From contig JAFGGA010000085.1 of NCBI GenBank assembly GCA_016930835.1, positions 1 through 45,120 on the forward strand: a stretch of 45,120 nucleotides of DNA, given 5' to 3'. The notes under the pieces were generated by a model. It ran no database searches and was not told where the DNA came from. It saw nothing but the letters and a program-made list of their open reading frames with translations. Position numbers and translations under genes: made by a program. Below are positions 7,445 through 30,594 of the stretch, piece by piece. How positions within the stretch are numbered: position 1 is the first letter of the stretch; every line of letters starts with the position of its first letter. The stretch is from Deltaproteobacteria bacterium. Its GTDB lineage: Bacteria > Desulfobacterota > DSM-4660 > Desulfatiglandales > HGW-15.

Positions 7445-8167
7445 TTACTCGACTGTCGCGATCACCACAACCTTGTACCCTTGTTCAGTCACGTTCCGTG
7501 CGTTGGAGTAGATCATGATGTAATCCAATAAACGCCCAGCTTCCTTGCCCACAATCTCGAAAGGAATCTCCCGTATTTCGCCGGGCCGGATGATCATGTT
7601 CCCTGATGTCGCCCCGTCAAAAAAGACCATCCCGGATTTTTTGGATTCCACTTTTGTGATTTCCAGATCCGCATCACCAGTATTTTTAGCCATAATAAGG
7701 AGTTTTACCGGTTCATTGATCTTTATCTCTCCGGCTGAAACCTTTCTGGGATCGACATCAAGGACTCCCATGGGAACGGGTTCAACATAGCCTACAAGAT
7801 TGATGATGGCTCTTCTTTCCTGGTGCTCCTGATCTATGAATACGGTGACATATTTTTCAAATTTGCCGGGGAACTTATAGGTATTGTAGCTGATCTTGAG
7901 TTCCGCCGTTTCTCCCGGTTTTATATCGCGCTGGCCCAGCACGGTGGAGGTGCATGCTCAGCTGGTGGTTACATTGGTGATTTTCAGTGGTTGATCTCCC
8001 GCGTTGAAAAGTTTGATAACTTTTTCAGCCACGACCCCTTCAACCATGTTCCCGAAATCGACACGGGTTTCGCTCAAGACCAGGTTGGCCCCTGGCCAGG
8101 CCCTGAGCGGCACCAAAATGAGCAGCGCCAGACCAATACACATAATTGATTTTTTTATCATTTGCAT
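7445..8167 (-). CDS. DUF1573 exported protein with in-frame UGA, putative selenoprotein
   Basis: Read through an in-frame TGA (7958-7960, codon 70), this is one 240-residue protein. It has a signal peptide (MQMIKKS plus a hydrophobic stretch), a DUF1573 Ig-like domain and a second Ig-like domain (about residues 125-240). DUF1573 proteins carry a conserved S-C-G-C-T motif after the first strands. Here the frame reads TTS-[UGA]-ACTS, so UGA replaces the first Cys and the second Cys (72) is kept. The frame is open on both sides and shows no other lesion. A hairpin fitting the bacterial SECIS rule starts 14 bases after the UGA. The ATG at 8167 follows AAGGAAGGG by 8 bases. It is last in the leftward operon, 21 bases after the cytochrome. 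A plain nonsense mutation is the alternative. Confidence 0.68.
7927..7960 (-). promoter_or_regulatory. Candidate bacterial SECIS element with its UGA codon
   Basis: Downstream of the UGA on the minus strand, after a 14-base spacer, CGTGCTG (7943-7937) pairs with CAGCGCG (7933-7927). This gives seven pairs including one G-U, around a GGC loop. The loop begins 21 bases after the UGA and starts with G. Published bacterial SECIS rules ask for a loop 16-37 bases from the UGA with a G in its first two positions, and this hairpin meets both. Confidence 0.55.
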
Positions 8168-8188
8168 GTTAAGACCCTTCCTTCAAGT

Positions 8189-8656
8189 TCACGGTGCACC
8201 ATGAACCAGTGCTTTCTTTTTCTCATAATTAAAGTCTTTATCCTGGCCCTCTGTGTGACAGGCGCGGCATAGGTCCTCACCAGGCCTTCCCACGATCTTC
8301 GAGGCATCTCCGTCGCTTTCCACGTGCGCCCGTCCCGGACCATGGCAGGACTCACACTGTACGCCCTTGAGCTCCGGTGTCAGTTCCATGTCGATAAAAC
8401 CGCCGTCTTTTTCATAGGCGACAACATGGCACCTGACGCATTCGGGTATGGACTGCTTCTCAGGTCCCTGCTTTGCAAGGTTTTCGAACGCTTTTGCGTG
8501 GCCCGTTTTCTCCCAGCCATCCACAACATCGTCATGACAGTCCCCGCATGCGGTGTAACCTACGTAATCACCGAATATCTCGGCCATGCCGACATGGCAT
8601 GTCCAGAGGATGGCCAGGATAACGACTATATAAAACATGATTCGATATATCCGCAT
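8189..8656 (-). CDS. Four-haem c-type cytochrome (cytochrome c554-like)
   Basis: This 155-residue exported electron carrier has four CxxCH haem motifs: CGDCH (37-41), CVRCH (73-77), CESCH (101-105) and CRACH (130-134). An N-terminal hydrophobic segment serves as signal peptide or anchor. Spacing and the text GYTACGDCHDDVVDGW resemble the cytochrome c554 family found in sulfate and nitrogen metabolisers. I chose the ATG at 8656, with AGGA just upstream, over a TTG 15 codons earlier. The gene precedes the DUF1573 protein by 21 bases, so the two periplasmic redox proteins are probably co-made. Additional His residues could be distal haem ligands. Confidence 0.85.
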   Translation of the reverse strand: MRIYRIMFYIVVILAILWTCHVGMAEIFGDYVGYTACGDCHDDVVDGWEKTGHAKAFENLAKQGPEKQSIPECVRCHVVAYEKDGGFIDMELTPELKGVQCESCHGPGRAHVESDGDASKIVGRPGEDLCRACHTEGQDKDFNYEKKKALVHGAP

Positions 8657-8785: not shown

Positions 8786-9082
8786 CTAGCAATTACAACC
8801 CGAACCGGGCTCTATGTAAAGCTTCTGCTTAAGTTGACGCAATAAGGCCGGAGTCATCCCTTCAACATCCAGGAGTTCATCCAAATCCACAAATTCGCCA
8901 TTCTCTGTTTTGTGCTTTTGAATCCCCTCTACAATCTCAGGGTCTATACCGATAGAAATAAGCTGTTCTTTCGTGGCTGTATTGAGATTTATCTTGCCTT
9001 CTTTATCCTCTGCAAACAGCACCTCTGATGACATCAGCAGGATGCATACCATAGCCAATATTCCCATTATTTTTATTTTCAT
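8786..9082 (-). CDS. Exported helix-hairpin-helix protein (ComEA-like domain)
   Basis: The product has 98 residues: a signal peptide of about 24, then a helix-hairpin-helix block beginning INLNTATKEQLISIGID and ending VEGMTPALLRQLKQKL. This is the ComEA/type II secretion K-like fold. It ends in GSGCNC, giving two Cys near the C terminus. ComEA binds DNA in competence, but no competence gene is nearby. A sister protein lies at 20773, so the pair probably serves this cluster. AAAGGAC sits 7 bases before the ATG. It lies 12 bases downstream of the small membrane protein gene. Confidence 0.78.
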   Translation of the reverse strand: MKIKIMGILAMVCILLMSSEVLFAEDKEGKINLNTATKEQLISIGIDPEIVEGIQKHKTENGEFVDLDELLDVEGMTPALLRQLKQKLYIEPGSGCNC

Positions 9083-9094
9083 GTCTTAAGTCCT

Positions 9095-9292
9095 TTACCA
9101 TCCTAAATAATGATAGCTATACATAAAAAACCAGAATACAGCGGAAAAGCCATAGGATGCAATTCCGCTGAACGTTTTACGGGCAAGCGATGCGTTTTCG
9201 CTGTGGGCCTTGAAAATTCCCATGTAGATCGCGGCGCCGGTGGCCAGAAAAAGCACAAGGGCCATAAATATAAACACGATCATCATGAACAT
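9095..9292 (-). CDS. Small membrane protein, 65 aa
   Basis: Two hydrophobic helices are evident, about residues 1-24 and 43-62, joined by a polar loop with KAHSENASLARK. The GGGAGA site before 9292 supports the start. I do not recognise the family. It is embedded between a 50-residue membrane peptide and the helix-hairpin-helix protein with gaps of 16 and 12 bases, so it is probably part of one complex or transport unit in the inner membrane. Confidence 0.6.
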   Translation of the reverse strand: MFMMIVFIFMALVLFLATGAAIYMGIFKAHSENASLARKTFSGIASYGFSAVFWFFMYSYHYLGW

Positions 9293-9308: not shown

Positions 9309-9461
9309 TTAATAAAGTCCCAGATATTGAAAAAATGTCAGAACCGCAATGATTATCAGGGCGATAAGCATGCCGCTTAAATCCCTGTCCTTTTCCTCGA
9401 TACCGCTGTTCGCCATGTAATCGAACCCGTCCAGGTCGGTGGTGTGCTGGTTTCTTTCCAT
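9309..9461 (-). CDS. Small single-span membrane protein, 50 aa
   Basis: A 50-codon frame begins at 9461 with a strong AGGAGG 10 bases upstream and ends 16 bases before the next gene. The N-terminal 30 residues are polar (MERNQHTTDLDGFDYM...) and the last 20 form one membrane helix (GMLIALIIIAVLTFFQYLG). The gene fits exactly between the exporter and the 65-residue protein, with a ribosome site and no overlap, which argues that it is real. Its small size and single helix suggest an accessory subunit of the exporter, but no family is recognised. Confidence 0.65.
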   Translation of the reverse strand: MERNQHTTDLDGFDYMANSGIEEKDRDLSGMLIALIIIAVLTFFQYLGLY

Positions 9462-9476
9462 TCTTCTTATATCCTC

Positions 9477-10634
9477 CTAAACGGTCAGCAATCCGGTTTT
9501 GATACAGAGCAGGATCGCTGCCAGTAAAAATACGATACGCAAAAGGCCTGCCGCGCAGGTGACAACAAATCCCCTGACGCCGGCCCCGATAATATCCCTG
9601 AATGAAATACTCAATCCAAGGGCCGCGGCAGCCAGGGAAAAATCCCATTTCACCATATTAAAAATGGCATGATGGGCCGGCTCCTTGAACAGGTGCAGGC
9701 ATGCCAGGACCCAGATGAAGATAAATACGCCCAGCCATACCGGAAATTTGTTTATTCCTCTGGTGGCCCGGATGTTGGGGTCTTCGGGGTTTCGCAGTTT
9801 TCGTATAAACATTACCAGAAAAACATATATAAAACCAGCAGGCATTATAACATGCCGACCCACATCAAACCAATAGGCATAACGGCCGGCCTCATAGCTG
9901 GATGCATAGGCGGCATACAAGGACTGACTGCCGTTGCCGACTCCCACTGCAGCGACAAGGCCCATGTACTTTTCCGGAATATTGAAAGGCGCCGCTATCA
10001 GAGGCAGGATGAGCATGGCTATGATACCGAAGAGGATGACGCCGATGGACGCGTTCATGACCTGATATCCCTTGGCTTTGATGAGCGGCATCAGAATGAC
10101 CCCAGCATGTGGATCGCCGGTGGAAAGTCCTCCGGCTATGATGGAGCCATGGCGGTCATCCAGCCTGAAAAGCTTTGTAAACCAAAGCGTTACGGTGGCC
10201 GTAAGAAACAATGATACCACAATGATGAGGATGGGCCAAAACCCGAGCTTGAAGGCATGGAAAATCATAAAGTGGGGTCCAAGCATGATGATGCCCAGGG
10301 GCATGAGCATGTGGATATAGCTCAATCCACGCTTCCAGGAATCCGGAACGCCGAAAATATTCCCGATAATAAGGCCCAGAAGGATCGGGTTCCAGACAAA
10401 GTTGGAGTTCAGGATCTGAAAAAACGGCTGGTGGTTCAAAGGCCCTATCACCCAATCCAGCCATTGGAAGAGATTTTCCAGTGTAAACGGGTTGGGCACC
10501 CCTGCCAGGTTATTGCTGAAGATAGCTATAAAGAACATGGCAAGCAGGCCGGGCAGGACCTCCCGAAAAGTGTAAAGGGAGGTCAAAAACGATTTTCTTC
10601 TTACATCATAGGCTATTGCCTGGGCATTATTCAT
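9477..10634 (-). CDS. UPF0324/YeiH-family membrane protein, putative anion exporter
   Basis: This 385-residue inner-membrane protein has about ten hydrophobic helices. Regions such as NPILLGLIIGNIFGVP, LMPLGIIMLGPHFM and the Gly-rich IIAGGLSTGDPHAGVILMP resemble the UPF0324 (YeiH) family. Family members have been proposed to export sulfate or related anions, but transport has rarely been shown. It lies between the large exported protein (60 bases upstream) and the 50-residue membrane peptide (15 bases downstream). The arylsulfotransferase-like genes on the other arm would fit a sulfur oxyanion substrate, which is inference only. Confidence 0.7.
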   Translation of the reverse strand: MNNAQAIAYDVRRKSFLTSLYTFREVLPGLLAMFFIAIFSNNLAGVPNPFTLENLFQWLDWVIGPLNHQPFFQILNSNFVWNPILLGLIIGNIFGVPDSWKRGLSYIHMLMPLGIIMLGPHFMIFHAFKLGFWPILIIVVSLFLTATVTLWFTKLFRLDDRHGSIIAGGLSTGDPHAGVILMPLIKAKGYQVMNASIGVILFGIIAMLILPLIAAPFNIPEKYMGLVAAVGVGNGSQSLYAAYASSYEAGRYAYWFDVGRHVIMPAGFIYVFLVMFIRKLRNPEDPNIRATRGINKFPVWLGVFIFIWVLACLHLFKEPAHHAIFNMVKWDFSLAAAALGLSISFRDIIGAGVRGFVVTCAAGLLRIVFLLAAILLCIKTGLLTV

Positions 10635-10694: not shown

Positions 10695-13616
10695 TTATCG
10701 CCTGATGTGTGCTGATCCACCGGTATTGACCGAACCGGATAATTTGGTTTCCGGGCCGTGTGAGCTGATACGCCACGATTCCATGAAACCGAGCCTGGGC
10801 AGCATTGATAGTCTCAGGAAACCTTCTATTGTTCCGGTAACCCCGATCAGTACATCGATATTGTTCCGGGGCCGGAAGGCCAGATTGTCTGTTGAATGCA
10901 GCTCATCGTCCTCGATTGTCTCCATGTGCCAGGCATGGATCATCTCACCATCGAAATGGTCTATCACGATCCGGAAAAGAGGTGTTCCGTCTTTTCGCTT
11001 CGGACCTTCATAAACGGGATGATCCTTATCCAGTATGATGGGCGCGGGATTGTCAAGGAGAACCTCATTCAATTGGTAACAATGGCCGCATACATCCGGC
11101 CTGACCATAAACCTGTCGTCGAACTCAAACGGCGTATCCCTCTTGAGCATCTGGATCTGACTATAGAGATAGAGCCTGGCCTTGCCCTCCTTAAAGGGGT
11201 CGTATATGTCCAGCTCAACGTGAATATCCTCGTGAGTAAACTGCATCTTTTCGGCGACAGGCAGATACTGGGGCAGCAGACCGATCGCGCCCTCATCGAG
11301 GGGGCCGAGGGTTTTCGATGCCACTTCCTTTCCTGTTTCATCTATGAGTACCAGGGCCACGGTTTTGGCATCCGGATCAATGGAAGCGCATTGGAGATCG
11401 TAGGCACCTATTTTCGCGTGTTCTCCGGCACCCATCAGGGTTTCTTTAGGTTTTTTGTATGTAAAACTGAAAGATTCAATGGATGGAGTTCCGAATTCCC
11501 GGATCTTCAGGTAATTGGAGCCTACATATTCCGGTATGATCCATGTGGCCCCTTCCGCGAAGATTTCGGGCATGAGGTAACGGTTCCCTGTATCCCGGTC
11601 CAGCCCCTGTGCGATCAGGAAATGGGCCCCCCAGCGGTTGCCCGAGTATTTCATGAGGCTCATTTCGCCTACAGGACGATCGTCAAGGTAGCAGTGATCC
11701 GTCATCCGGAGGGTCTTGTTTCTAATGCCAAGGAGTTCATCCTGCCAATACATCAGGTTGCCGTCGCCCATGGGTTGGTTTTTCCAGAAGTCCAGGTGGA
11801 CATTCTTGCGCACGATGGTGCTGGATCTGAAAGAAGCCAGGTAGGCCTTTTCCCCGAGCATGTAAAACTCTTCCCCTGACAGTGTCCGCATATTCCTTGA
11901 ATTGCGGGAACTGTAACAGAGGCCCGCGGGCGGAATGATAATTTTTCCGTTTCGATAATCCACATAACTGCCCCGGATAAAGATGCTTTCGGCCGATATC
12001 AATCGGTTCTTCTTACGATCCCGCGTATATTTTCTCATCAGGCCATCGAGCCTCGGCACAAAAGGTGCGGTATGGTCCGGCTCATAAAAAGAGCTGTCCG
12101 ATATGACCTTGGGATAAGAGGTGAATTGAGATTCCTCGACAACAGTGCCGAAAGAGGGATCGGCCAACCGCGTCAGAAAAGTATCTTCCAGTATAGGCTC
12201 CAGCACAGGAGACGATCCTATGAAAAAATCGATATTGTGCCGGCCTTCTTTCGGCCAGAAGACCATATTTTCCGTACGAGCGAAGAAATAGTCTCTCAGA
12301 TACTGTTCCCGAACCACATTTCCGTCCAATTTATCGACGACGACCTTGAATGCCGGACGGTTCCAGAAATTGGACCACTTTACGGGGCCTGTGCAGGTGT
12401 TGTGATCTTTATCAAATGTGATGGGTTCGGCGTTTTCAATCAGAAGTCGTTGGAGCATTCCCGTCATCATATTGGGCTCCAGGAGGACCTTGTAACGCTT
12501 ATCCAAAGGCCATGGCTCGCCATGCCGCACATTGATGAGACGGCGATAAACAACAAAATTCAATACCCCCTCCTGGAATCCATGGGATTTACCGGTCGAC
12601 CAGGGGACGAAATCGGAATTTTTCAGATGCAAAGGCTGCACCATGATCTCGATGCGGATATCCAGATCAGGAATGGTGAGATGGTAATCGTCCTTTTTCT
12701 TGCACATGCTTTTATATCCCTGGGCCGTAATGGGTTTTATAAGCTTTTCGGCATAAACCTTTCCGCCTGTAAAGCCGGTCACCCTCACCAGAAATCCGTC
12801 CGGCCTGCGAAAGGCGTATATCCTTTTGTCGAAGTAGAGACGGTAGTCATCCTGTCGGACATCCATTACAATGGGCCGGTGCATGGAAAAAGTGGCTTCC
12901 GTAATCCATGGAAATTCAATGGATTCGAATTGCGCCTCGTCGTAAGTGATGTTTTTGGCTACAAATCGACTGGCTCCATATAGATATTCCTTATCCATGC
13001 AGAATTTTTCAAGCTGCTCCACATAGCCTTCGCCTATTTTGATTGTGCGAATTTCTTCCCTCTCGGCAAAGACACTCGCAATGGGGAATTCAAGGGGCCA
13101 TCCGCCGGAAGGAGAGATGAGCGCCAGCTCCGCGTAAGGCTTTTCATAATGATCAGTGGCATAGTCATACCACATGCGGTAACCGGTATCTTCAACCTGG
13201 GCCTTCCGGCCCCCTTTTACTGAAAAATCTTTTACCGTGTACGTGCTGGATTCGAGGTCCACCAGATAGGTGTGTTCGCCCAGCAACAGGAACGGGTCTC
13301 TCCTCAGCGGTGCGGCGTCTCCGCTGGTCTCGGAAAGATAAAACAGGCCTCCGGCTGGAACTGTGGCCTTTCCGTCGCTGATCTCGCTTCCCCTCAGAAC
13401 AACGGCCTCGGAAAGGCTTTTCCCCTGACCGAGATAGTTTTTAAAGACTTTATTCCGGAGTCCAGGCAAATGGGGGAAAAAGGTCATATCATCGGCCGGT
13501 TCCAGGCCATGCGGATCATCCAGGGCATAAGCCTGTCTGATGCGGCCGTCCGTCATCAGAATGAAAGCGACGAGTACGCAGAAGAATGGAAATAATTTTT
13601 TAAGGCAATGAATCAT
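10695..13616 (-). CDS. Large exported protein with internal duplication, 973 aa
   Basis: After a signal peptide of about 30 residues, the protein is a tandem duplication. Segment one (about 45-480) and segment two (about 525-930) share ordered landmarks: FxPxLxGL, a VPAGGLFYLSE versus IPPAGLCYSSR turn, LLGEHTYLVDLESSTY versus MLGEKAYLASFRSSTI, and RLLIENAEPITFDKDH versus EVLLDNPAPIILDKDH. Both repeats look beta-rich, with no membrane helix after the signal, so the protein is probably periplasmic or cell-surface. I do not recognise the family. It is the first gene of the leftward operon, downstream of a regulator-type palindrome, and probably a main target of the adjacent two-component system. 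Confidence 0.72.
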   Translation of the reverse strand: MIHCLKKLFPFFCVLVAFILMTDGRIRQAYALDDPHGLEPADDMTFFPHLPGLRNKVFKNYLGQGKSLSEAVVLRGSEISDGKATVPAGGLFYLSETSGDAAPLRRDPFLLLGEHTYLVDLESSTYTVKDFSVKGGRKAQVEDTGYRMWYDYATDHYEKPYAELALISPSGGWPLEFPIASVFAEREEIRTIKIGEGYVEQLEKFCMDKEYLYGASRFVAKNITYDEAQFESIEFPWITEATFSMHRPIVMDVRQDDYRLYFDKRIYAFRRPDGFLVRVTGFTGGKVYAEKLIKPITAQGYKSMCKKKDDYHLTIPDLDIRIEIMVQPLHLKNSDFVPWSTGKSHGFQEGVLNFVVYRRLINVRHGEPWPLDKRYKVLLEPNMMTGMLQRLLIENAEPITFDKDHNTCTGPVKWSNFWNRPAFKVVVDKLDGNVVREQYLRDYFFARTENMVFWPKEGRHNIDFFIGSSPVLEPILEDTFLTRLADPSFGTVVEESQFTSYPKVISDSSFYEPDHTAPFVPRLDGLMRKYTRDRKKNRLISAESIFIRGSYVDYRNGKIIIPPAGLCYSSRNSRNMRTLSGEEFYMLGEKAYLASFRSSTIVRKNVHLDFWKNQPMGDGNLMYWQDELLGIRNKTLRMTDHCYLDDRPVGEMSLMKYSGNRWGAHFLIAQGLDRDTGNRYLMPEIFAEGATWIIPEYVGSNYLKIREFGTPSIESFSFTYKKPKETLMGAGEHAKIGAYDLQCASIDPDAKTVALVLIDETGKEVASKTLGPLDEGAIGLLPQYLPVAEKMQFTHEDIHVELDIYDPFKEGKARLYLYSQIQMLKRDTPFEFDDRFMVRPDVCGHCYQLNEVLLDNPAPIILDKDHPVYEGPKRKDGTPLFRIVIDHFDGEMIHAWHMETIEDDELHSTDNLAFRPRNNIDVLIGVTGTIEGFLRLSMLPRLGFMESWRISSHGPETKLSGSVNTGGSAHIRR

Positions 13617-13950: not shown

Positions 13951-15942
13951 ATGGTATCACGTATGAAAATATCTCTAATCATGAGTATGTTAATGGTGCT
14001 GTTCATCAGCACAGGCGAAACAGCAGCAGAAAGAAAGGTCATTCGCGTGGGGGTCCGCCCTTCCGCGCCACCTTTTTGTTTTTTATCCCAGAATCAGGGT
14101 AAGGTTGGGCTCCGGGGTATCAATATAGACCTGATGAGCCAGATCGAAAAATACCTCCGTGTGAAAATGGAATACATAAGCTGCTCCGGTATCGAGCAAA
14201 GGCAACACTGGCTGTCTGAAGGTCGTGTAGATGTGATTGCACTTGTTTCCATGGAAGATATAGATTCGGTGGCTTTCCATTCTATACCCGTTGATTTTTC
14301 ACTCAATCGCCGTCTTTTTGTACACGAATCGTGTAAGACGATCGTTTGCGCGCGGGATTTGTCCAACAAGCAGGTGGTGACCATCGCAGGCGATCCATAC
14401 CATCCATTTGTCGGAGAAGTTGACCAGGACAATCTGATCGTGGTCCGGACCCCTCTCGAGGCCCTTCAGTTACTGAATAAAGGTTTGGTGGATGCCTTCC
14501 TGGCGCCTTCCGATCTGATTGCTCAATATCTGGTTCAGACCGAGCAACTGGAGCATGTCGTCATGGTGGGTGTGACTCTCCAGCGTATGCCCCTGGCCCT
14601 TGCCGTAAGGGCGGAAAATGATGAGCTGTTTGAAGAATTATCCAGGGCTGTTGAATACCTGAATCGTTCAGGGGCCTTGCAGCTGATCAAGGATAAATGG
14701 TACGGTGTTGTGTACCAACCGACCTCTTGGCGCCGCTATTCTAAGGTGATTTTCATATCCGTGTCGACCGTCATCTTTATCATGCTTGCTGTTTTTGCCT
14801 GGAATTTCCAGCTCAAAAGAAAAGTAAGAAAGGTCACAAGAGATCTGCAGAACTCTGAAAATAAATACAGGAATCTCATTGAAACGTCCCCGGATATGAT
14901 TTTTGTGGTGGATCAACAGGGCAGGATCGAGACCGCCAATCAGGAGGCGCGGATGATGATACACGAAGCCGGTTCGAAAAACGATCAGGAGCGGTATCTA
15001 TACAAATATGTCATCCCCGATGAATATGAGAAATTGAAGAAATTCCTGGCCTCTGTTTTCAATGGTCAGAGTGGATCGAGCCCCTTCCATTTTGTATACT
15101 CCAGCGGAGAGACTCGGGACATGGACGTGGCTGCCGTGCGTATTTCTTCTGGTGTAACCGATGAAGGCATGGCCTGTTTTTTTGTAAGAGATGTGACCGA
15201 ACGAAAACGTATGGAGCAAGAGCTGATTCAAGCGGACCGCCTGGCGACCATCGGAAAAATGGCCGCTGGAATAGCCCATGAGATCAACAACCCCATCGGC
15301 ATTGTGCGGGCGAACATCGAACTTATCCGGACGCGGGGCTGGTTTGCTGAAGAAGCAAGGGAATTTGTCGAATCCATTCGCAGAAACACCCTTCGGGCCG
15401 GCAAAATAACGCAGGATCTACTGGCCATCGCCAAACCCAAGACACCGGAGATGACCGAGGTGGATCTATGCAACCTCATCGATTTGACACTCGCCCTGCT
15501 CAACCACCAGCTAAAAGGGGTTGAGATCGATTTCGCCCCGTCCCAAAATCCTGTGTGGGTCCTGGGGGACAGGAATCTCCTGCAGCAGGTCCTTGTGAAC
15601 GTTTTCCTGAACGCCGTGACCGCTATGAAAGACAATTTGAAGAGGAAGATGCTCATCACATTTTGTTCTCCTCCTGGAGCGGATGCGGCCTGCCTGCGTA
15701 TCGAGGACAATGGCGAGGGTATACCCAAAAAATATCTCAATGAGATTTTTGAGGCCTTTTTCACCTATGGCAAGCTGGATGGCTTCGGTCTCGGGCTTTT
15801 TATCTGCCGACGGATAATAGAGCATCATGATGGTATGATATTTGCTGAGTCAGAAGAAGGGAGAGGTACACAGATAGTCATCGAATTGCCTCTTATTAAA
15901 GGACCGCGACAGGCTTCCATATGGGAAGGTATGGCATCATGA
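13951..15942 (+). CDS. Hybrid periplasmic-binding-domain sensor histidine kinase
   Basis: This is the sensor half of a two-component system. Residues 1-27 form a signal sequence and 28-255 a family 3 solute-binding domain (VIRVGVRPSAPPFCF, IDLMSQIEKYL, ALQLLNKGLVDAFL). A membrane helix spans about 265-285, followed by a PAS domain (about 300-415). The kinase core has His443 in GIAHEINNP, the N box LVNVFLNAV, IEDNGEGIP and GLGLFICRR. The binding domain should detect a periplasmic solute directly. It overlaps the regulator gene by an ATGA. Neither this ATG nor the one four codons later has a good ribosome site, so the start is uncertain. Confidence 0.9.
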   Translation: MVSRMKISLIMSMLMVLFISTGETAAERKVIRVGVRPSAPPFCFLSQNQGKVGLRGINIDLMSQIEKYLRVKMEYISCSGIEQRQHWLSEGRVDVIALVSMEDIDSVAFHSIPVDFSLNRRLFVHESCKTIVCARDLSNKQVVTIAGDPYHPFVGEVDQDNLIVVRTPLEALQLLNKGLVDAFLAPSDLIAQYLVQTEQLEHVVMVGVTLQRMPLALAVRAENDELFEELSRAVEYLNRSGALQLIKDKWYGVVYQPTSWRRYSKVIFISVSTVIFIMLAVFAWNFQLKRKVRKVTRDLQNSENKYRNLIETSPDMIFVVDQQGRIETANQEARMMIHEAGSKNDQERYLYKYVIPDEYEKLKKFLASVFNGQSGSSPFHFVYSSGETRDMDVAAVRISSGVTDEGMACFFVRDVTERKRMEQELIQADRLATIGKMAAGIAHEINNPIGIVRANIELIRTRGWFAEEAREFVESIRRNTLRAGKITQDLLAIAKPKTPEMTEVDLCNLIDLTLALLNHQLKGVEIDFAPSQNPVWVLGDRNLLQQVLVNVFLNAVTAMKDNLKRKMLITFCSPPGADAACLRIEDNGEGIPKKYLNEIFEAFFTYGKLDGFGLGLFICRRIIEHHDGMIFAESEEGRGTQIVIELPLIKGPRQASIWEGMAS

Positions 15943-17285
15943 AGCCCAAGATTTTGATCATAGACGACGAACCGGAATTTTTACATGTTCTAAAGAGCTA
16001 TTTTTCCTATAGTGGATATGAAGTGACCACGGCGCTTACGGCGGAAGATGGTCTCAGGTTCATAGAACAGACCTTTTTTGATGCTGTGGTTACGGATATG
16101 GCCATGCCGAGGGGCCGGAGCGGTCTGGAACTTCTCAAGGAGATCCGTCAGACGGATGGCATCATGCCGGTGATCATCATGACGGGTGTGGGAACGATAG
16201 AAAGCGCGGTGGAGGCCATCCAGATGGGGGCCTTTCATTACATCACAAAACCCTTCGACCCCCAGGAATTGGAGATCCTGGTGCGAAGGGCAACGGAAAG
16301 CGGCCGCATGCACCGGAAGCTCATCCAGACCGGTGTCACCGAAGAAGAGAATGGTCTCATCGCTGGAAATAACCGGCAGATCAATACTATTCTCCAGACC
16401 ATAGACAAGGTAGCCGACTCCGATGCGCCCGTACTCTTCCTGGGTGAGACGGGAACGGGCAAAAGCCTGTTTGCCCGTCGCGTTCACGATAAGAGCATTC
16501 GAAGGGGGAGACCTTTTTTGACCATTGACTGTGCGGCCTTGGCCGAGACGCTTTTGGAGAGTGAGCTTTTCGGACATGTAAAGGGATCCTTTACCGGAGC
16601 GGTGTCGGCCAAGAGGGGTCTTCTCGAGGAGGCCCAGGGCGGAACGGTTTTTTTGGATGAAATCGGGGAGATACCACCGGGCACCCAGGTGAAGCTGCTT
16701 CGAACCATACAGGAAAAAGAGATCAAACCGGTGGGTGGTAACCATTCCATCAGGATAGACGTCCGGTTTGTGTCGGCCACCAGCCGGAACCTGGAGGAGG
16801 AGATCGAGAAGGGCCATTTCCGTGAAGACCTGTATTTCCGTCTTGCGGTTATTCCTCTTCGGATGCCACCGCTTCGGGAGCGCAGAGAGGATCTGCCCCA
16901 GTTCATCGCCCATTTTGTGAATGTCTACAATAAAAGGTACAAGAAAAAGGTTTCCCGGATCGATCCAAAGGTCATGCAAATGCTCAACTCGTCATTCTGG
17001 AAAGGAAATATCCGGGAGCTGGAAAACGCTATTGAAAGGGCCGTTCTCCTGGCGGAGGGAGAAACCATCACAGGAGACCTGTTCGGTTATCAGACACAGG
17101 GATTCGCCGGCGATGACAGGGAATACCATTCTCTTCCCCTCAAAGAGATAGTGGAAGAGGCGGAGAAACAGGCCATTCAGCAGGTGCTTGCAGAAACGGA
17201 AGGCAACAGGACGGAGGCTGCCAAGAAATTGGGTATCGGCCGACGTACGCTTTACGACAAGATGGCCGCTTACACGCTCAAATAA
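15939..17285 (+). CDS. NtrC-type sigma-54-dependent response regulator
   Basis: The 448-residue regulator has a receiver domain (phospho-acceptor Asp53 in VVTDMAMP). Its AAA+ activator domain has Walker A GETGTGKS, ESELFGHVKG and Walker B GGTVFLDEIG. A Fis-type helix-turn-helix closes the protein (EGNRTEAAKKLGIGRRTLYDK). The sigma-54 contact loop reads GSFTGA rather than the usual GAFTGA. The start at 15939 overlaps the kinase stop as ATGA, which implies translational coupling. The three palindromes at 13785, 17354 and 17387 are probable binding sites, and the promoter at 17573 is a probable target. Confidence 0.94.
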   Translation: MKPKILIIDDEPEFLHVLKSYFSYSGYEVTTALTAEDGLRFIEQTFFDAVVTDMAMPRGRSGLELLKEIRQTDGIMPVIIMTGVGTIESAVEAIQMGAFHYITKPFDPQELEILVRRATESGRMHRKLIQTGVTEEENGLIAGNNRQINTILQTIDKVADSDAPVLFLGETGTGKSLFARRVHDKSIRRGRPFLTIDCAALAETLLESELFGHVKGSFTGAVSAKRGLLEEAQGGTVFLDEIGEIPPGTQVKLLRTIQEKEIKPVGGNHSIRIDVRFVSATSRNLEEEIEKGHFREDLYFRLAVIPLRMPPLRERREDLPQFIAHFVNVYNKRYKKKVSRIDPKVMQMLNSSFWKGNIRELENAIERAVLLAEGETITGDLFGYQTQGFAGDDREYHSLPLKEIVEEAEKQAIQQVLAETEGNRTEAAKKLGIGRRTLYDKMAAYTLK

Positions 17286-17353
17286 GATCGTTGATCAACT
17301 ATACCAATCATTGTATGTCCAAAATTCCATGTAATCGATCTGTTTTAAAAAAA

Positions 17354-17371
17354 TGTGCATAACCCCGCACA
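17354..17371. promoter_or_regulatory. Enhancer palindrome 1, TGTGC-N8-GCACA
   Basis: TGTGCATAACCCCGCACA is a perfect five-base inverted pair with an 8-base spacer. It lies about 215 bases upstream of the sigma-54 promoter and 33 bases (about three helical turns) from a second copy, centre to centre. This is a classic arrangement for an NtrC-type activator. Confidence 0.65.
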
Positions 17372-17386
17372 GAACCTTGATTAAGA

Positions 17387-17404
17387 TGTACGTCAGGCCG
17401 CACA
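17387..17404. promoter_or_regulatory. Enhancer palindrome 2, TGTAC-N8-GCACA
   Basis: TGTACGTCAGGCCGCACA has the same half-sites and spacing as the copy at 17354, on the same face of the helix. Together the pair could hold two regulator dimers. Confidence 0.62.
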
Positions 17405-17572
17405 TTTGAAAGCCCGGGATCTCTTTATTTTTTTTGATATCTTATAGGATGTAGCATAAATCTTTCCATTCTCTCTTTTTTAAATGAATTATCAAAGGGT
17501 TGTAAGATAACTACCCCTCCTTTTCCTGCTTAAATATCCATTCGTCATGATAACCGTAGCTTCTCGTGATAA

Positions 17573-17587
17573 GGCATGAGTCTTGCT
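17573..17587 (+). promoter_or_regulatory. Sigma-54 promoter for the arylsulfotransferase-like genes
   Basis: GGCATGAGTCTTGCT fits the -24/-12 consensus (GGCAY-N5-TTGCT), with GG and GC ten bases apart. Transcription would begin near 17598, giving a leader of about 155 bases before the gene at 17754. The enhancer pair lies upstream at a suitable distance. Confidence 0.7.
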
Positions 17588-17753
17588 GATCGTATTATAG
17601 ATGGTTTGATGATGCAGCCGGGCAGAACCCTTAGACCGCTCTAAAAATGGAAACGAAAGGAGGAGAGCGAAAATCAAGGCATTATTACTGGTATGCATTC
17701 CCGTTAACCTGCAAAAAGATTCATATAACCAATCAAAAAGAGGAGGGTAAAAA

Positions 17754-19178
17754 ATGAAAAAATTGACTGTTTGTGCTGTTGTTTTCATGATTGTCGGATT
17801 TTTTTCTGCGGCCTATGCCTATGAGGCCATCGTTGGTCCGACCGGGGTACTCAAGTATGACAAATCAAAGTCCTATGGCGGGTATACCCTGATTTCCCCC
17901 ATGACCGGCTGCAAAACGTCATTCCTGATCGACATGGAAGGAAACCTGATTCACAAATGGGAAACCGATTACGCCCCTGGCCTTATGGCCATGCTGCTTC
18001 CGAACGGGAATCTCCTTCGGGGTACTAGGCATGATAAGCGGAACTGTACGGTAGGCGGCGCCGCGGGTGGCGTCCAAGAGATCGATTGGAATGGGAAGGT
18101 GGTCTGGGAGTACATGATGAATACACCCACCGAGATCCAGCATCACTGCTTTGACCGTATGCCCAACGGCAACACCCTGATCCTTGGCTGGGAATTCAAG
18201 AGCATTGAAGACGCCATTGCCAAGGGACGCGATCCAAAAACCATTCCAGTCTCTATTTTCAGTGGGGGCGTCTGGCATTACGGGTTCTGGGTCGACTTTG
18301 TCAGAGAGGTGGACAAGGCCGGAAGGACCGTTTGGGAATGGCATGTATGGGATCATGTGGGTACAGGTCCCAACCAGTTCGATATCAATTACAAACTACC
18401 CAAACCAGTGGGAGAAATCTATGCTACTTGGGACTGGACCCATTTCAACACCTGTGAGTATGTTCCGGAGAAGGATTTGATCCTTTTGAATTCCCGTAAT
18501 TTCAGCGAATTTTATCTTGTCGATCACAAAACAGGTGAAATGGTCTACAGGTGGGGCAATCCCAGCGCCTATGGACAGGGAAAGGCCCCTTCATGGTATG
18601 ACAACGGCGATCAGAAGATCTTCGGAAACCACAACGCCACCTGGTTGGGGAATGATCGTGTCCAGGTCTTTGACAACGGATCGGAACGGCCCGAGGGAAA
18701 CCGATCCGCGGTGGTGGAAGTGGATATCCGGACAGGAAAGATCGTCTGGGAGTTTGAAACAAAGACCTCCAACAGCTTTTACTCCTATCGTCAGGGTGCG
18801 GCCCAGAGACTGCCCAACGGCAATGTCCATGTAACGTCCACCCAACAGGGACACCTCTTTGAGGTGACACCGGATAAAAAGGTAGTCTGGGATTATGTCA
18901 ATCCCGTGCATAATGGTAAGGTGAAGTGTACCCTGGAGGATGGGGATTCGCATCATGGATCTTTCAATATGATCCACCGATCCTACCGCTATGCGGCCGA
19001 CTTTCCCGGCTTAAAGGGTAAGGACCTGAGCGTAAAGGGTCCTCTGGCTCCTCAGTGCCCGTCTTTCTACAGGATCTATCAGGAAGGCGCCAAGGTGGAT
19101 GTCAAGGCGCCGGCCCCGGTGACAAAACCCGCCAAACCCGAGGATGATGATGGTCCTCCCGCAATGAAGGCTTACTAG
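17754..19178 (+). CDS. Arylsulfotransferase-like periplasmic beta-propeller protein 1
   Basis: The 474-residue product has a signal peptide (cleavage near AYA, residue 22) and repeated propeller blades marked by LIDMEGNLIHKWE, EIDWNGKVVWEY, REVDKAGRTVWEW, VEVDIRTGKIVWEFE and VTPDKKVVWDY. This pattern fits the ASST (aryl-sulfate sulfotransferase) family, which moves sulfate between phenols in the periplasm without PAPS. Candidate active-site residues are His230 (DWTHFNT), His293 (GNHNATW) and Arg317 (NRSAV). I cannot confirm the sulfate-accepting His of characterised ASST, so the chemistry is open. The tail is Pro- and Asp-rich. GAGGAGG precedes the ATG. It is the first gene behind the sigma-54 promoter. 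Confidence 0.82.
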   Translation: MKKLTVCAVVFMIVGFFSAAYAYEAIVGPTGVLKYDKSKSYGGYTLISPMTGCKTSFLIDMEGNLIHKWETDYAPGLMAMLLPNGNLLRGTRHDKRNCTVGGAAGGVQEIDWNGKVVWEYMMNTPTEIQHHCFDRMPNGNTLILGWEFKSIEDAIAKGRDPKTIPVSIFSGGVWHYGFWVDFVREVDKAGRTVWEWHVWDHVGTGPNQFDINYKLPKPVGEIYATWDWTHFNTCEYVPEKDLILLNSRNFSEFYLVDHKTGEMVYRWGNPSAYGQGKAPSWYDNGDQKIFGNHNATWLGNDRVQVFDNGSERPEGNRSAVVEVDIRTGKIVWEFETKTSNSFYSYRQGAAQRLPNGNVHVTSTQQGHLFEVTPDKKVVWDYVNPVHNGKVKCTLEDGDSHHGSFNMIHRSYRYAADFPGLKGKDLSVKGPLAPQCPSFYRIYQEGAKVDVKAPAPVTKPAKPEDDDGPPAMKAY

Positions 19179-19220
19179 GGCGTTGGATTTGGATGCATTG
19201 AATGTTAAACTGTTGCTTTG

Positions 19221-19250
19221 CTCCCTCTCCCTACCGGGGAGGGGGTAAGG
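19221..19250 (+). repeat. GC-rich palindromic repeat, family C
   Basis: CTCCCTCTCCCTACCGGGGAGGGGG is an imperfect palindrome. Similar units occur at 24321, 29483, 29711, 31292, 39355 and 44150. Lying between two genes of one operon, it could form an mRNA hairpin that adjusts expression. Confidence 0.6.
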
Positions 19251-19268
19251 CCTAAAAAGGAGTCTATT

Positions 19269-20711
19269 ATGAAGTGTAAAAAGATTATCATGTGCGCGGC
19301 CGCCGTGATCGCCTGTGCACTGATATATCCGTCAGGGGTATTTTCGTTCCCCACGGTTTTTCCGCATGGGACCACGATTTATAACCCTGAAAAGTGTTAT
19401 AATGGATATACGGTGTTCGGGACCGAGGTGGAAGAGGAAGGCACCGTGCTGATCGATATGAACGGTAACGTGGTCAAGCAGTGGAAGAACATCTGCCAGG
19501 CCGAGCATCCGCCCAAGATGCTCAATGGGGGTTATCTGGCGGGGACCATGCGGCCGGCGCCTGAGAAGGACGGCAGGATTTGGGGCGATGATCATTCCAC
19601 GGACCTGGTGGTGGTGGATTGGGACGGCAAGGTGGTTCGTAATATACCCAGGGCAGGCATGCACCATGATTACCAGTTTGAGGGTAATCCGGTCGGATAC
19701 CATGTGCCGGGAATGCTTGTTGACAACTACAAGGGCAAGATTCTAATCCTGTCCCACAAGATAGCCAGGAACCCGGCAATCACGGATAAGGATCTTTACG
19801 ACGATTATATCGCGGAGGTGGATGCCAAAGGCAATATCGTCTGGGAATGGCTGGCCAGCGAGCATTTTGACGAGATGAACTTCCCGGATGAGGTGAAGGC
19901 GACCTTGTATAAGTACCCTACTTATTCCGCGACCCGGACACCGGATGTGAAAGGGGGCGATTGGATACACGTGAACGCCGCCTCCTATCTGGGACCCAAC
20001 AAGTGGTATAATGAAGATCCGGTCAAATATAAGGTATTTCATCCCGACAACATCATCATATCCAACCGCCAGACCAATACCAGTTGCATCATCGAGAAGG
20101 CAACCGGTAAGGTCGTCTGGCAGATCGGGCCGCTTTATTATCCGGATATTATCTGGGAATTCGGCGGTGAACAGTATAAGAGGGCTTACAGGAAACTTGA
20201 GCAGATCATCGGGCAACATCACACCCACATGATTCCCAAGGGACTGCCCGGTGAGGGAAATATCATGATCTATGATAATGGCGGTTACGCAGGCTATGGG
20301 CCGCGGAACCCTGGAGCGCATTGGGGCTGGTCGGATGCCCGCAGGGACTATTCCCGTGTGATCGAATTTGATCCGCGTACCCTGGAGATGGTATGGGAGC
20401 ACTCGGCCAAGGTGATGGGTCTGCGTGAAAAATACAAATTTTATTCAGACTATGTAAGTTCCGCCCAGCGCCTTCCGAACGGCAACACGCTCATCACCAA
20501 TGGCGCGGTCGGACAGTTCCAGGAAGTCACACCTGATCATGAGATCGTTTGGGAGTACATCAGCCCTTATTACAATGACAAGGGCAAGTACAACCTGGTT
20601 TACCGGGCCTACAGGGTTCCTTATGATTATGTTCCCCAGTTGAAGAAACCTGTGGAGCGTTCCGTTGTTCCGCCCGATAATACGAAATACCGGGTCGATC
20701 CGGTTAAATAA
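19269..20711 (+). CDS. Arylsulfotransferase-like periplasmic beta-propeller protein 2
   Basis: This 480-residue paralogue of the preceding gene has a signal peptide (cleavage near VFS, residue 26) and blade motifs VLIDMNGNVVKQW, VVDWDGKVVRN, AEVDAKGNIVWEW, EKATGKVVWQIG and VTPDHEIVWEY. Candidate active-site residues are His234 (DWIHVNA), His317-His320 (QHHTH) and Arg363 (YSRVIEFD), placed like those in protein 1. The ATG at 19269 follows AAGGAG by 6 bases; upstream codons in frame belong to the repeat. Two divergent paralogues side by side suggest either different substrates or a heteromeric complex. It shares the operon with the helix-hairpin-helix gene 60 bases downstream. Confidence 0.82.
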   Translation: MKCKKIIMCAAAVIACALIYPSGVFSFPTVFPHGTTIYNPEKCYNGYTVFGTEVEEEGTVLIDMNGNVVKQWKNICQAEHPPKMLNGGYLAGTMRPAPEKDGRIWGDDHSTDLVVVDWDGKVVRNIPRAGMHHDYQFEGNPVGYHVPGMLVDNYKGKILILSHKIARNPAITDKDLYDDYIAEVDAKGNIVWEWLASEHFDEMNFPDEVKATLYKYPTYSATRTPDVKGGDWIHVNAASYLGPNKWYNEDPVKYKVFHPDNIIISNRQTNTSCIIEKATGKVVWQIGPLYYPDIIWEFGGEQYKRAYRKLEQIIGQHHTHMIPKGLPGEGNIMIYDNGGYAGYGPRNPGAHWGWSDARRDYSRVIEFDPRTLEMVWEHSAKVMGLREKYKFYSDYVSSAQRLPNGNTLITNGAVGQFQEVTPDHEIVWEYISPYYNDKGKYNLVYRAYRVPYDYVPQLKKPVERSVVPPDNTKYRVDPVK

Positions 20712-23376: not shown

Positions 23377-23939
23377 ATGCCGGATATCCTCGTGGTTCAA
23401 AATCTGTTTGAAAGTTTCGGCAAGCTCGTTGCCGTATCGAATTTGTCGTTTGAAGTCAGGCAGGGGGAGATCCTCGGGATGATGGGGCCCAATGGCGCCG
23501 GTAAGACCACGGTTTTTAATCCTTTGCCAGGGGTCTTAAAACCAATCGGCTCACCACAGAGGTCTGGTGGTCACCCCATCATCCCTTTAAGTCATCATTT
23601 GAAGGCTATAGCGCCAAAGACCTTTGTGACGCCTGGACAAAGGCCACGGGAAAACAACCAACGGCGACATTGGGTTACAAGTATGCCGGTTATGAGATCG
23701 CAACGAATGTCCTGAGAAGGGCGGAGACGCTAGATAAAGAGGTCTTGCGCAAGGCTATTGCCGATACGCACATGGATACCATGGTGGGGCATATCCAATA
23801 TAATAGCGAAAATTATTGTCGCACACCTCTGGTCGGCGGGCAGAGGGTGAAAGGGGATCAGTTCCCGTGGGATGTCAAAATTGTCGAGAACAGACAGCAT
23901 CCTTATATTCCAATGACCGGAAAGATTTTTTCGATGTGA
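23377..23939 (+). pseudogene. Deletion scar: 5' livG joined to 3' end of a branched-chain amino acid binding protein
   Basis: Residues 1-58 are a LivG-type ABC ATPase start, with the Walker A block GPNGAGKTTVFN, then the match ends abruptly. In another frame, from about 23547 to the TGA at 23937, the text RLTTEVWWSPHHPF, DAWTKATGKQPTAT, YAGYEIATNVLRRAE and GHIQYNSENY is the C-terminal third of a LivK-type periplasmic binding protein. Both parts belong to one transporter type, so one large internal deletion in a liv operon explains the fusion. The junction is near 23541-23550. The product cannot transport. The intact operon probably fed the pathway below. Confidence 0.8.
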
Positions 23940-29862: not shown

Positions 29863-30594
29863 CTGAGCGCCCATCGCCGGTTCTTCAACTCCATCGGGTG
29901 GACACCCATCGCCCATAATCCGGATTCCTGGGAGGGCTGGCACTGGGGGGCCATGCATCATTGGGGGAACAGCATGCGCCTGGGTGCGTCCGAGACCTAT
30001 GGCACGGTTGAAGACCTCTTAAAGGAATGCGAGATGGTGGTCTTCTGGTCCAGCGATCCGGAATCCACCAGCGGGGTGTATGCGGCCTTTGAGGGAACCG
30101 TGCGGTGTCAGTGGCTCAAGGAGATGGGGATCAAGATGGGCCACATCGATCCCTTCTACAACCACACGGCGGCCCTGTTGGGCGGCAAAGGGCTGGCCCA
30201 GCGTCCGGCCACGGGCAATGCCCTGGCCCTTGCCATCGCCTATGTGTGACAGAAGATCTTTACGACAAAGAGTACGTGATCCATCGTACTATCGGATTCG
30301 ACCAGTGGAAGGACTATATCCTGGGCAAGGAAGACGAGGTTCCGAAAACACCTGAATGGCAAGAAAATGAGTCCGCCATTCCCGCAAAAGACGTCAGGGC
30401 CCTGGCCAGGGAATGGGGTTCCAAAAAGACCTATCTGGCCGCAGGTGGCATCGTGGGTTTCGAGAGCGCCTGCCGTTGCGCCACCGGAACGGAATGGGCC
30501 CCGGTCCATGGTCTGTTTGATGGCCATGCAGGGATTGGGTAAGCCGGGTGTCAACATGGGCTGTATGCAACAAGGAACACCGGTGGATGAACAT
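29863..30594 (+). pseudogene. Decayed pyrogallol-phloroglucinol transhydroxylase large subunit (molybdopterin)
   Basis: The text FFNSIGWTPIAHNPDSWEGW, EMVVFWSSDPESTSGVYAAF, IDPFYNHTAALLGGKG, DLYDKEYVIHRTIGFDQW and LMAMQGLGKPGVNMGCMQQG belongs to the DMSO-reductase-type large subunit family of transhydroxylase. Frames change near 30246, where a TGG seems to have lost a base, and near 30500. Both N- and C-terminal parts are missing. At about 30594 the match passes straight into the small-subunit remnant. The intact enzyme would make phloroglucinol from pyrogallol. Assignment within this Mo family is from memory of the sequence, so a sister family is possible. Confidence 0.75.

Follow-up and report, generated by a model that had tools for sequence, protein, structure and literature searches.

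A predicted DUF1573 selenoprotein of a divergent branch encoded beside a tetrahaem cytochrome

Two reviews count DUF1573 (pfam07610, motif UGC) among the selenoprotein families, and both credit the DUF1573 selenoprotein to the Olavius algarvensis symbiont study of Zhang and Gladyshev in 2007 (PMC9312934, PMC13188914). NCBIfam holds a corresponding model, NF041425 (OS_HP2 family (seleno)protein), with a curated cut-off of 100 bits. This model was matched in 69 of the 85 genomes of the order examined here, 47 above the cut-off, and nearly all of the matches carried one TGA. The initial annotation of the gene described below had proposed a new selenoprotein type, on the grounds that no DUF1573 selenoprotein had been described; the reviews, the NCBIfam model and its distribution show that this claim was wrong. 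The gene belongs to a known selenoprotein family and represents a divergent branch of it that appears to be novel: no description of this cytochrome-linked branch was found in NCBIfam or in the open literature, to which the search was confined, subscription papers lying outside it.

The gene was found in a 45,120-nucleotide stretch of a deltaproteobacterial genome (contig JAFGGA010000085.1), referred to here as the window. It lies at 7445-8167 on the minus strand (read from 8167 to 7445), the strand having been left unstated in the initial annotation. Translation with TGA read as selenocysteine (Sec) gave a protein of 240 amino acids, the reading frame of which contained exactly one TGA, at codon 70 (7958-7960), and no TAA or TAG; the frame was therefore interrupted by TGA only, as originally reported. 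The Pfam profile PF07610 matched across the UGA (E=6.3e-28, 97.1 bits against a gathering cut-off of 26.1). The sequence surrounding codon 70 was TTS-U-ACTST, and alignment with relatives placed the UGA in the column of the family's first Cys, where the homologues had TGA, TGC or TGT. The second Cys of the motif was retained, giving Sec-x-Cys, so that the position assigned to the UGA at the outset was borne out.

Most of the DUF1573 homologues recovered in a search of 61 relatives were broken by exactly one TGA. The window's own genome contained two more genes of this subfamily (C129 and C132), both with TGA at the Sec column, and the orthologue from Delta proteobacterium NaphS2 had TGC at this column and was otherwise intact. 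Downstream of the UGA, the identity between the window gene and the NaphS2 gene was 0.63, 0.71 and 0.40 at the first, second and third codon positions, respectively, an order (second, first, third) that indicates that the frame beyond the UGA is still under protein-level constraint. Of 1,829 TGAs in all frames and on both strands of the window, 11 had an open frame of 50 codons or more before them and one of 100 or more after them, and the DUF1573 UGA was the only one of these to be followed by a conforming hairpin with an energy below -4 kcal/mol.

The 4.7 Mb genome, which is 95% complete, contained a tRNA-Sec with a UCA anticodon together with SelA, SelB and SelD, the selD gene itself having one TGA; the complete set of genes that the initial annotation had suggested looking for was thus present. 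In NaphS2 and in a second genome that carries the same operon (G106; UAC), SelA was found and a tRNA-Sec above the cut-off was not.

The hairpin predicted to act as the SECIS element occupies 7927-7943 on the minus strand and consists of a 7-bp stem closed by a GGC loop at 7934-7936 (CGUGCUG-GGC-CAGCGCG). The published bacterial SECIS model specifies a loop of 3-9 nt, a stem of 4-16 bp, a G in the first two loop positions, a distance of 16-37 nt from the UGA and an MFE of -7.5 or lower (PMC13188914). The window hairpin conformed to this model, with the loop 21 nt past the UGA and a stem-loop energy of -8.5 kcal/mol, in agreement with the stem, loop and spacing first reported for it. An Rfam scan of 7700-8250 gave no match, as is expected for gene-specific SECIS elements. 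As a single fold the hairpin was no more stable than shuffled sequences (z about -0.1), and folding with longer flanks gave a different structure; the hairpin is therefore weak by itself, and its strength comes from comparative evidence.

That comparison used a gap-free alignment of 14 distinct Sec sequences of the window branch. The hairpin was conserved in this set, with 89% of cells paired as against 77% after shuffling and 30-50% when the position was slid. Five of the eight pairs were altered on both sides, the number of double-changed cells was 19 (6.4 expected), and the covariation score was not reached in any of 500 shuffles; RNAalifold recovered the 7-bp stem unaided. The paired codon swaps (GUG/CGC, AUG/CAU, ACG/CGU, GUG/CAC and GCG/CGC) change the encoded residues (V, M, T or A on one side, R or H on the other) while the RNA pairs persist, which argues for selection at the RNA level. 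Under one scoring rule, the hairpin reached -6 kcal/mol or lower in 6 of 7 Sec members, in none of 18 CGC relatives and not in the CAC orthologue of NaphS2, in which LSRQ stands in place of the LGKR of the Sec members; among the window's TGAs as a whole, 4% satisfied this rule. The hairpin of the C132 paralogue contained a mismatch. The UGA and the downstream hairpin are shared by the 14 Sec sequences of the branch, and the Cys relatives have no hairpin. By the simple bSECIS rule, the common UGC-type DUF1573 genes (loci L012-L038) did not share an ungapped hairpin of one kind at a fixed position, and their SECIS elements may be bulged or of another class.

Immediately upstream, on the same strand and separated from the DUF1573 start by 21 nt, is a gene for a 155-amino-acid cytochrome of the c554 type (8189-8656, with an ORF extendable to 8701). 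Four CXXCH motifs were confirmed in its product, which matched PF13435 (E=5.9e-19, 69.2 bits against a cut-off of 20.8) and PDB entry 1bvb (E=1.9e-12). All six of the Sec-clade loci tested had a four-CXXCH ORF directly upstream, as did NaphS2 and 7 of another 9 loci of the Sec clade; a nearby multihaem ORF was found at none of 25 loci of UGC relatives and at 2 of 18 loci of CGC relatives. Since some clade loci had no cytochrome within about 1.7 kb, the cytochrome is not obligatory. At two loci, C132 in the window's own genome (L040) and L060, cytochrome and DUF1573 formed one reading frame. The link to a four-haem cytochrome that had been suggested from the window was accordingly strengthened.

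Two types of operon were distinguished. Type A comprises seven genes and was conserved in four genomes (the window genome, NaphS2, L059 and G106), in the order 973-aa protein, PF03601 membrane protein, 50-aa and 65-aa membrane proteins, helix-hairpin-helix (HhH) protein ending in CNC, cytochrome and DUF1573. In the window, all of these genes are on the minus strand. The first encodes the 973-aa protein (10695-13616), which looks secreted, had no Pfam or NCBIfam match, has homologues at L058, L059 and L091 and is also the first operon gene in NaphS2, L059 and G106. It is followed by the PF03601 membrane protein gene (9477-10634; YeiH-like, of the putative sulfate exporter family, with a weak match to TIGR00698), found in the same operon at L058, L059 and L091, and by the genes for the predicted 50-aa (9309-9461) and 65-aa (9095-9292) membrane proteins, both with positional homologues in NaphS2, L059 and G106. 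The ComEA-like HhH protein (8786-9082, 98 aa; PF12836, E=2.2e-14) has a signal-like N-terminus and a C-terminal GCNC tail; the tail, with its CNC (Cys-x-Cys), was kept in all four operons. The stretch 13951-20711 of the window holds genes for a two-component pair (13951-17285) and for two large proteins that are related to each other, look secreted and are putatively arylsulfotransferase-like (17754-20711); these genes recur in the vicinity of the operon in G106 (L091) and partly also in L059. Elsewhere in the window, short ORFs at 23377-23715 and 30105-30542 resemble fragments of an ABC-transporter ATPase and a molybdopterin oxidoreductase and are possibly degenerate.

Type B operons (C129, C132, L060, G372 and G652) have a rhodanese with a YCDCGPGE motif, the cytochrome and DUF1573, and at C129, C132 and G372 UGSC-family proteins are encoded after DUF1573. 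The rhodanese-like proteins (L039 687-1112, L040 2365-2787, L060 2912-3427 and L092 8067-8480) all have this motif, which gives them an active-site Cys-x-Cys, and are similar to the rhodanese-related (seleno)protein model NF041203. Directly downstream of the paralogous DUF1573 genes lay genes of the UGSC family (PF24696) that contain an in-frame TGA (L039 2550-4469 and L040 4102-5928, on C129 and C132 of the window's own genome, and L092 4987-6711), which places selenoprotein genes of two families side by side.

Against NF041425 the window protein scored 59.5 bits (44.9 when the genome was searched); of eight clade members tested, none passed the cut-off, the best reaching 70.5 bits. Besides the window gene and its two paralogues, the clade comprises about a dozen homologues. 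In the trees, the window gene, 15 other Sec sequences and the Cys form of NaphS2 formed one branch (support 100/99-100, length 0.9-1.0) that was separate from the relatives with UGC or CGC and did not group with the OS_HP2 UGC sequences; the trees are rough, having been built on few columns with an arbitrary midpoint root. Because three clade members read UGC, it is the LGK[RH] hairpin that distinguishes the clade and not the middle residue of the motif. Within the window's class, the clade was found at the threshold used in the window genome and NaphS2 only; it was also present in G106, G372, L060 and several genomes of the phylum of L059 (labelled Acidobacteria in GenBank). A plasmid search for relatives returned only distant Bacteroidota DUF1573 proteins, and no relative was found in the viral contigs searched.

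The window protein has a signal-peptide-like stretch at the N-terminus, and its AlphaFold2 model (pLDDT 87) showed two Ig-like domains, with U70 in a turn between strands; the product is thus predicted to have two Ig-like (ASH/HYDIN-type) domains and to carry Sec-x-Cys in a turn of the first. A PDB fold search with this model gave a general Ig-like/ASH resemblance only (HYDIN, SPD-2 and 2qsv). In the model of the cytochrome-DUF1573 fusion, the cytochrome half was too poor to place the haems relative to Sec.

That the UGA is read as selenocysteine to give a full-length protein is strongly supported at the sequence level by the Sec machinery, the UGA in many independent genomes, the compensatory hairpin changes and the lack of the hairpin in Cys homologues, and the initial designation as a probable selenoprotein was upheld on this basis. 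A pseudogene or a sequencing error, in which TGA has replaced a Cys codon and full-length protein is no longer produced, might be suspected because the gene has Cys relatives and other window genes look degenerate, but two paralogues and many independent assemblies also have TGA in this column, the coding pattern persists past it and the SECIS covaries; this explanation is very improbable. Still more remote is an altered genetic code in which UGA is read throughout as an ordinary amino acid. It would account for one in-frame UGA being read through, but the adjacent cytochrome gene ends in TGA, which shows that TGA is also an ordinary stop here, the DUF1573 UGA is the only one in the window to combine long open flanks with a SECIS, and the Sec machinery is complete. 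Altered code, pseudogene and sequencing error were all rejected on these grounds.

With the selenoprotein reading preferred, two further alternatives concern what kind of protein is made. The gene could be an ordinary OS_HP2/DUF1573 selenoprotein with the role of the common UGC form and no functional distinction of its branch, given that the domain and the Sec column are identical, that NF041425 does match the window protein and that UGC occurs within the clade. This seems unlikely: the protein falls below the cut-off while its own genome holds a closer match (C159, 89 bits), its branch is long and well supported, and both the SECIS sequence and the gene neighbourhood differ, no cytochrome being found at the 25 UGC loci. 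The main rival to a redox role is that Sec-x-Cys ligates a metal or haem, for example as an axial ligand to a partner haem or as a metal trap, and is not a dithiol-type redox centre. The fusion or adjacency of DUF1573 to a multihaem cytochrome would suit such a site, as would the multihaem cytochrome selenoprotein in the PDB (9wt8, MccSep); a search for literature on MccSep or on Sec as a haem ligand found none. We consider the ligand role doubtful, if slightly less so than the ordinary OS_HP2 reading. In a secreted protein whose gene neighbours that of a multihaem cytochrome, or is fused to it, a Sec-x-Cys pair points to a centre in electron exchange with the haems.

The explanation that we favour, and regard as probably correct, is that the gene encodes a periplasmic DUF1573 selenoprotein of a divergent branch. 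SelB and tRNA-Sec would decode the UGA at codon 70, directed by the downstream hairpin; Sec and Cys would together form a selenenylsulfide/dithiol redox centre, and this centre may exchange electrons with the tetrahaem cytochrome, as the gene neighbourhood suggests. Sulfur compounds are a guess at the substrate, prompted by the rhodaneses at other loci and the YeiH-like membrane protein of the window operon. A broader proposal, for which the chances appear evenly balanced, is that an undescribed subfamily (U-[A/G]-C, LGK[RH] SECIS) and a dedicated tetrahaem cytochrome constitute a Se-dependent periplasmic electron-transfer module occurring in two operon types (with YeiH-like, HhH and 973-aa proteins, or with rhodanese and UGSC-family proteins), in which Sec arose separately from the OS_HP2 branch.

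A second branch of DUF1573 selenoproteins lies under the cut-off of the NCBIfam selenoprotein model, and as a consequence its genes may be mistaken for truncated ones in annotation. Conservation of the neighbouring cytochrome gene, together with the fusions, provides a domain of unknown function with a concrete partner, the tetrahaem cytochrome, and makes the role of DUF1573 testable; it raises the question of whether a Sec-x-Cys centre on an Ig-like domain trades electrons with a c554-type cytochrome.

Among known systems, nitrifier cytochrome c554 (PF13435; PDB 1bvb) is of the same tetrahaem c554-type family as the window partner, whereas its organism and context differ; we know of no DUF1573 partner for it. 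ExtKL (NF040886) and MccSep resemble the present locus in bringing selenocysteine together with a multihaem cytochrome, but in these proteins Sec is inside the cytochrome polypeptide, and the similarity of the window cytochrome to them was marginal (15.2 bits for NF040886; E=0.009 for 9wt8). The UshA-like (seleno)protein NF041198 (motif CxU) likewise combines a selenoprotein with a cytochrome of this type, in that positions 399-519 of its 519, at the C-terminal end, resemble the window tetrahaem cytochrome; its Sec-bearing part, however, is a different domain, and the window cytochrome is a separate protein that scored far below the NF041198 cut-off. With the OS_HP2/DUF1573 selenoproteins the window clade shares the domain, Sec at the first-Cys column, the retained second Cys and a bacterial SECIS downstream; it differs from them in its U-A-C (rarely U-G-C) motif, its LGK[RH] hairpin, its scores below the NF041425 cut-off, its separate branch and its link to a tetrahaem cytochrome.
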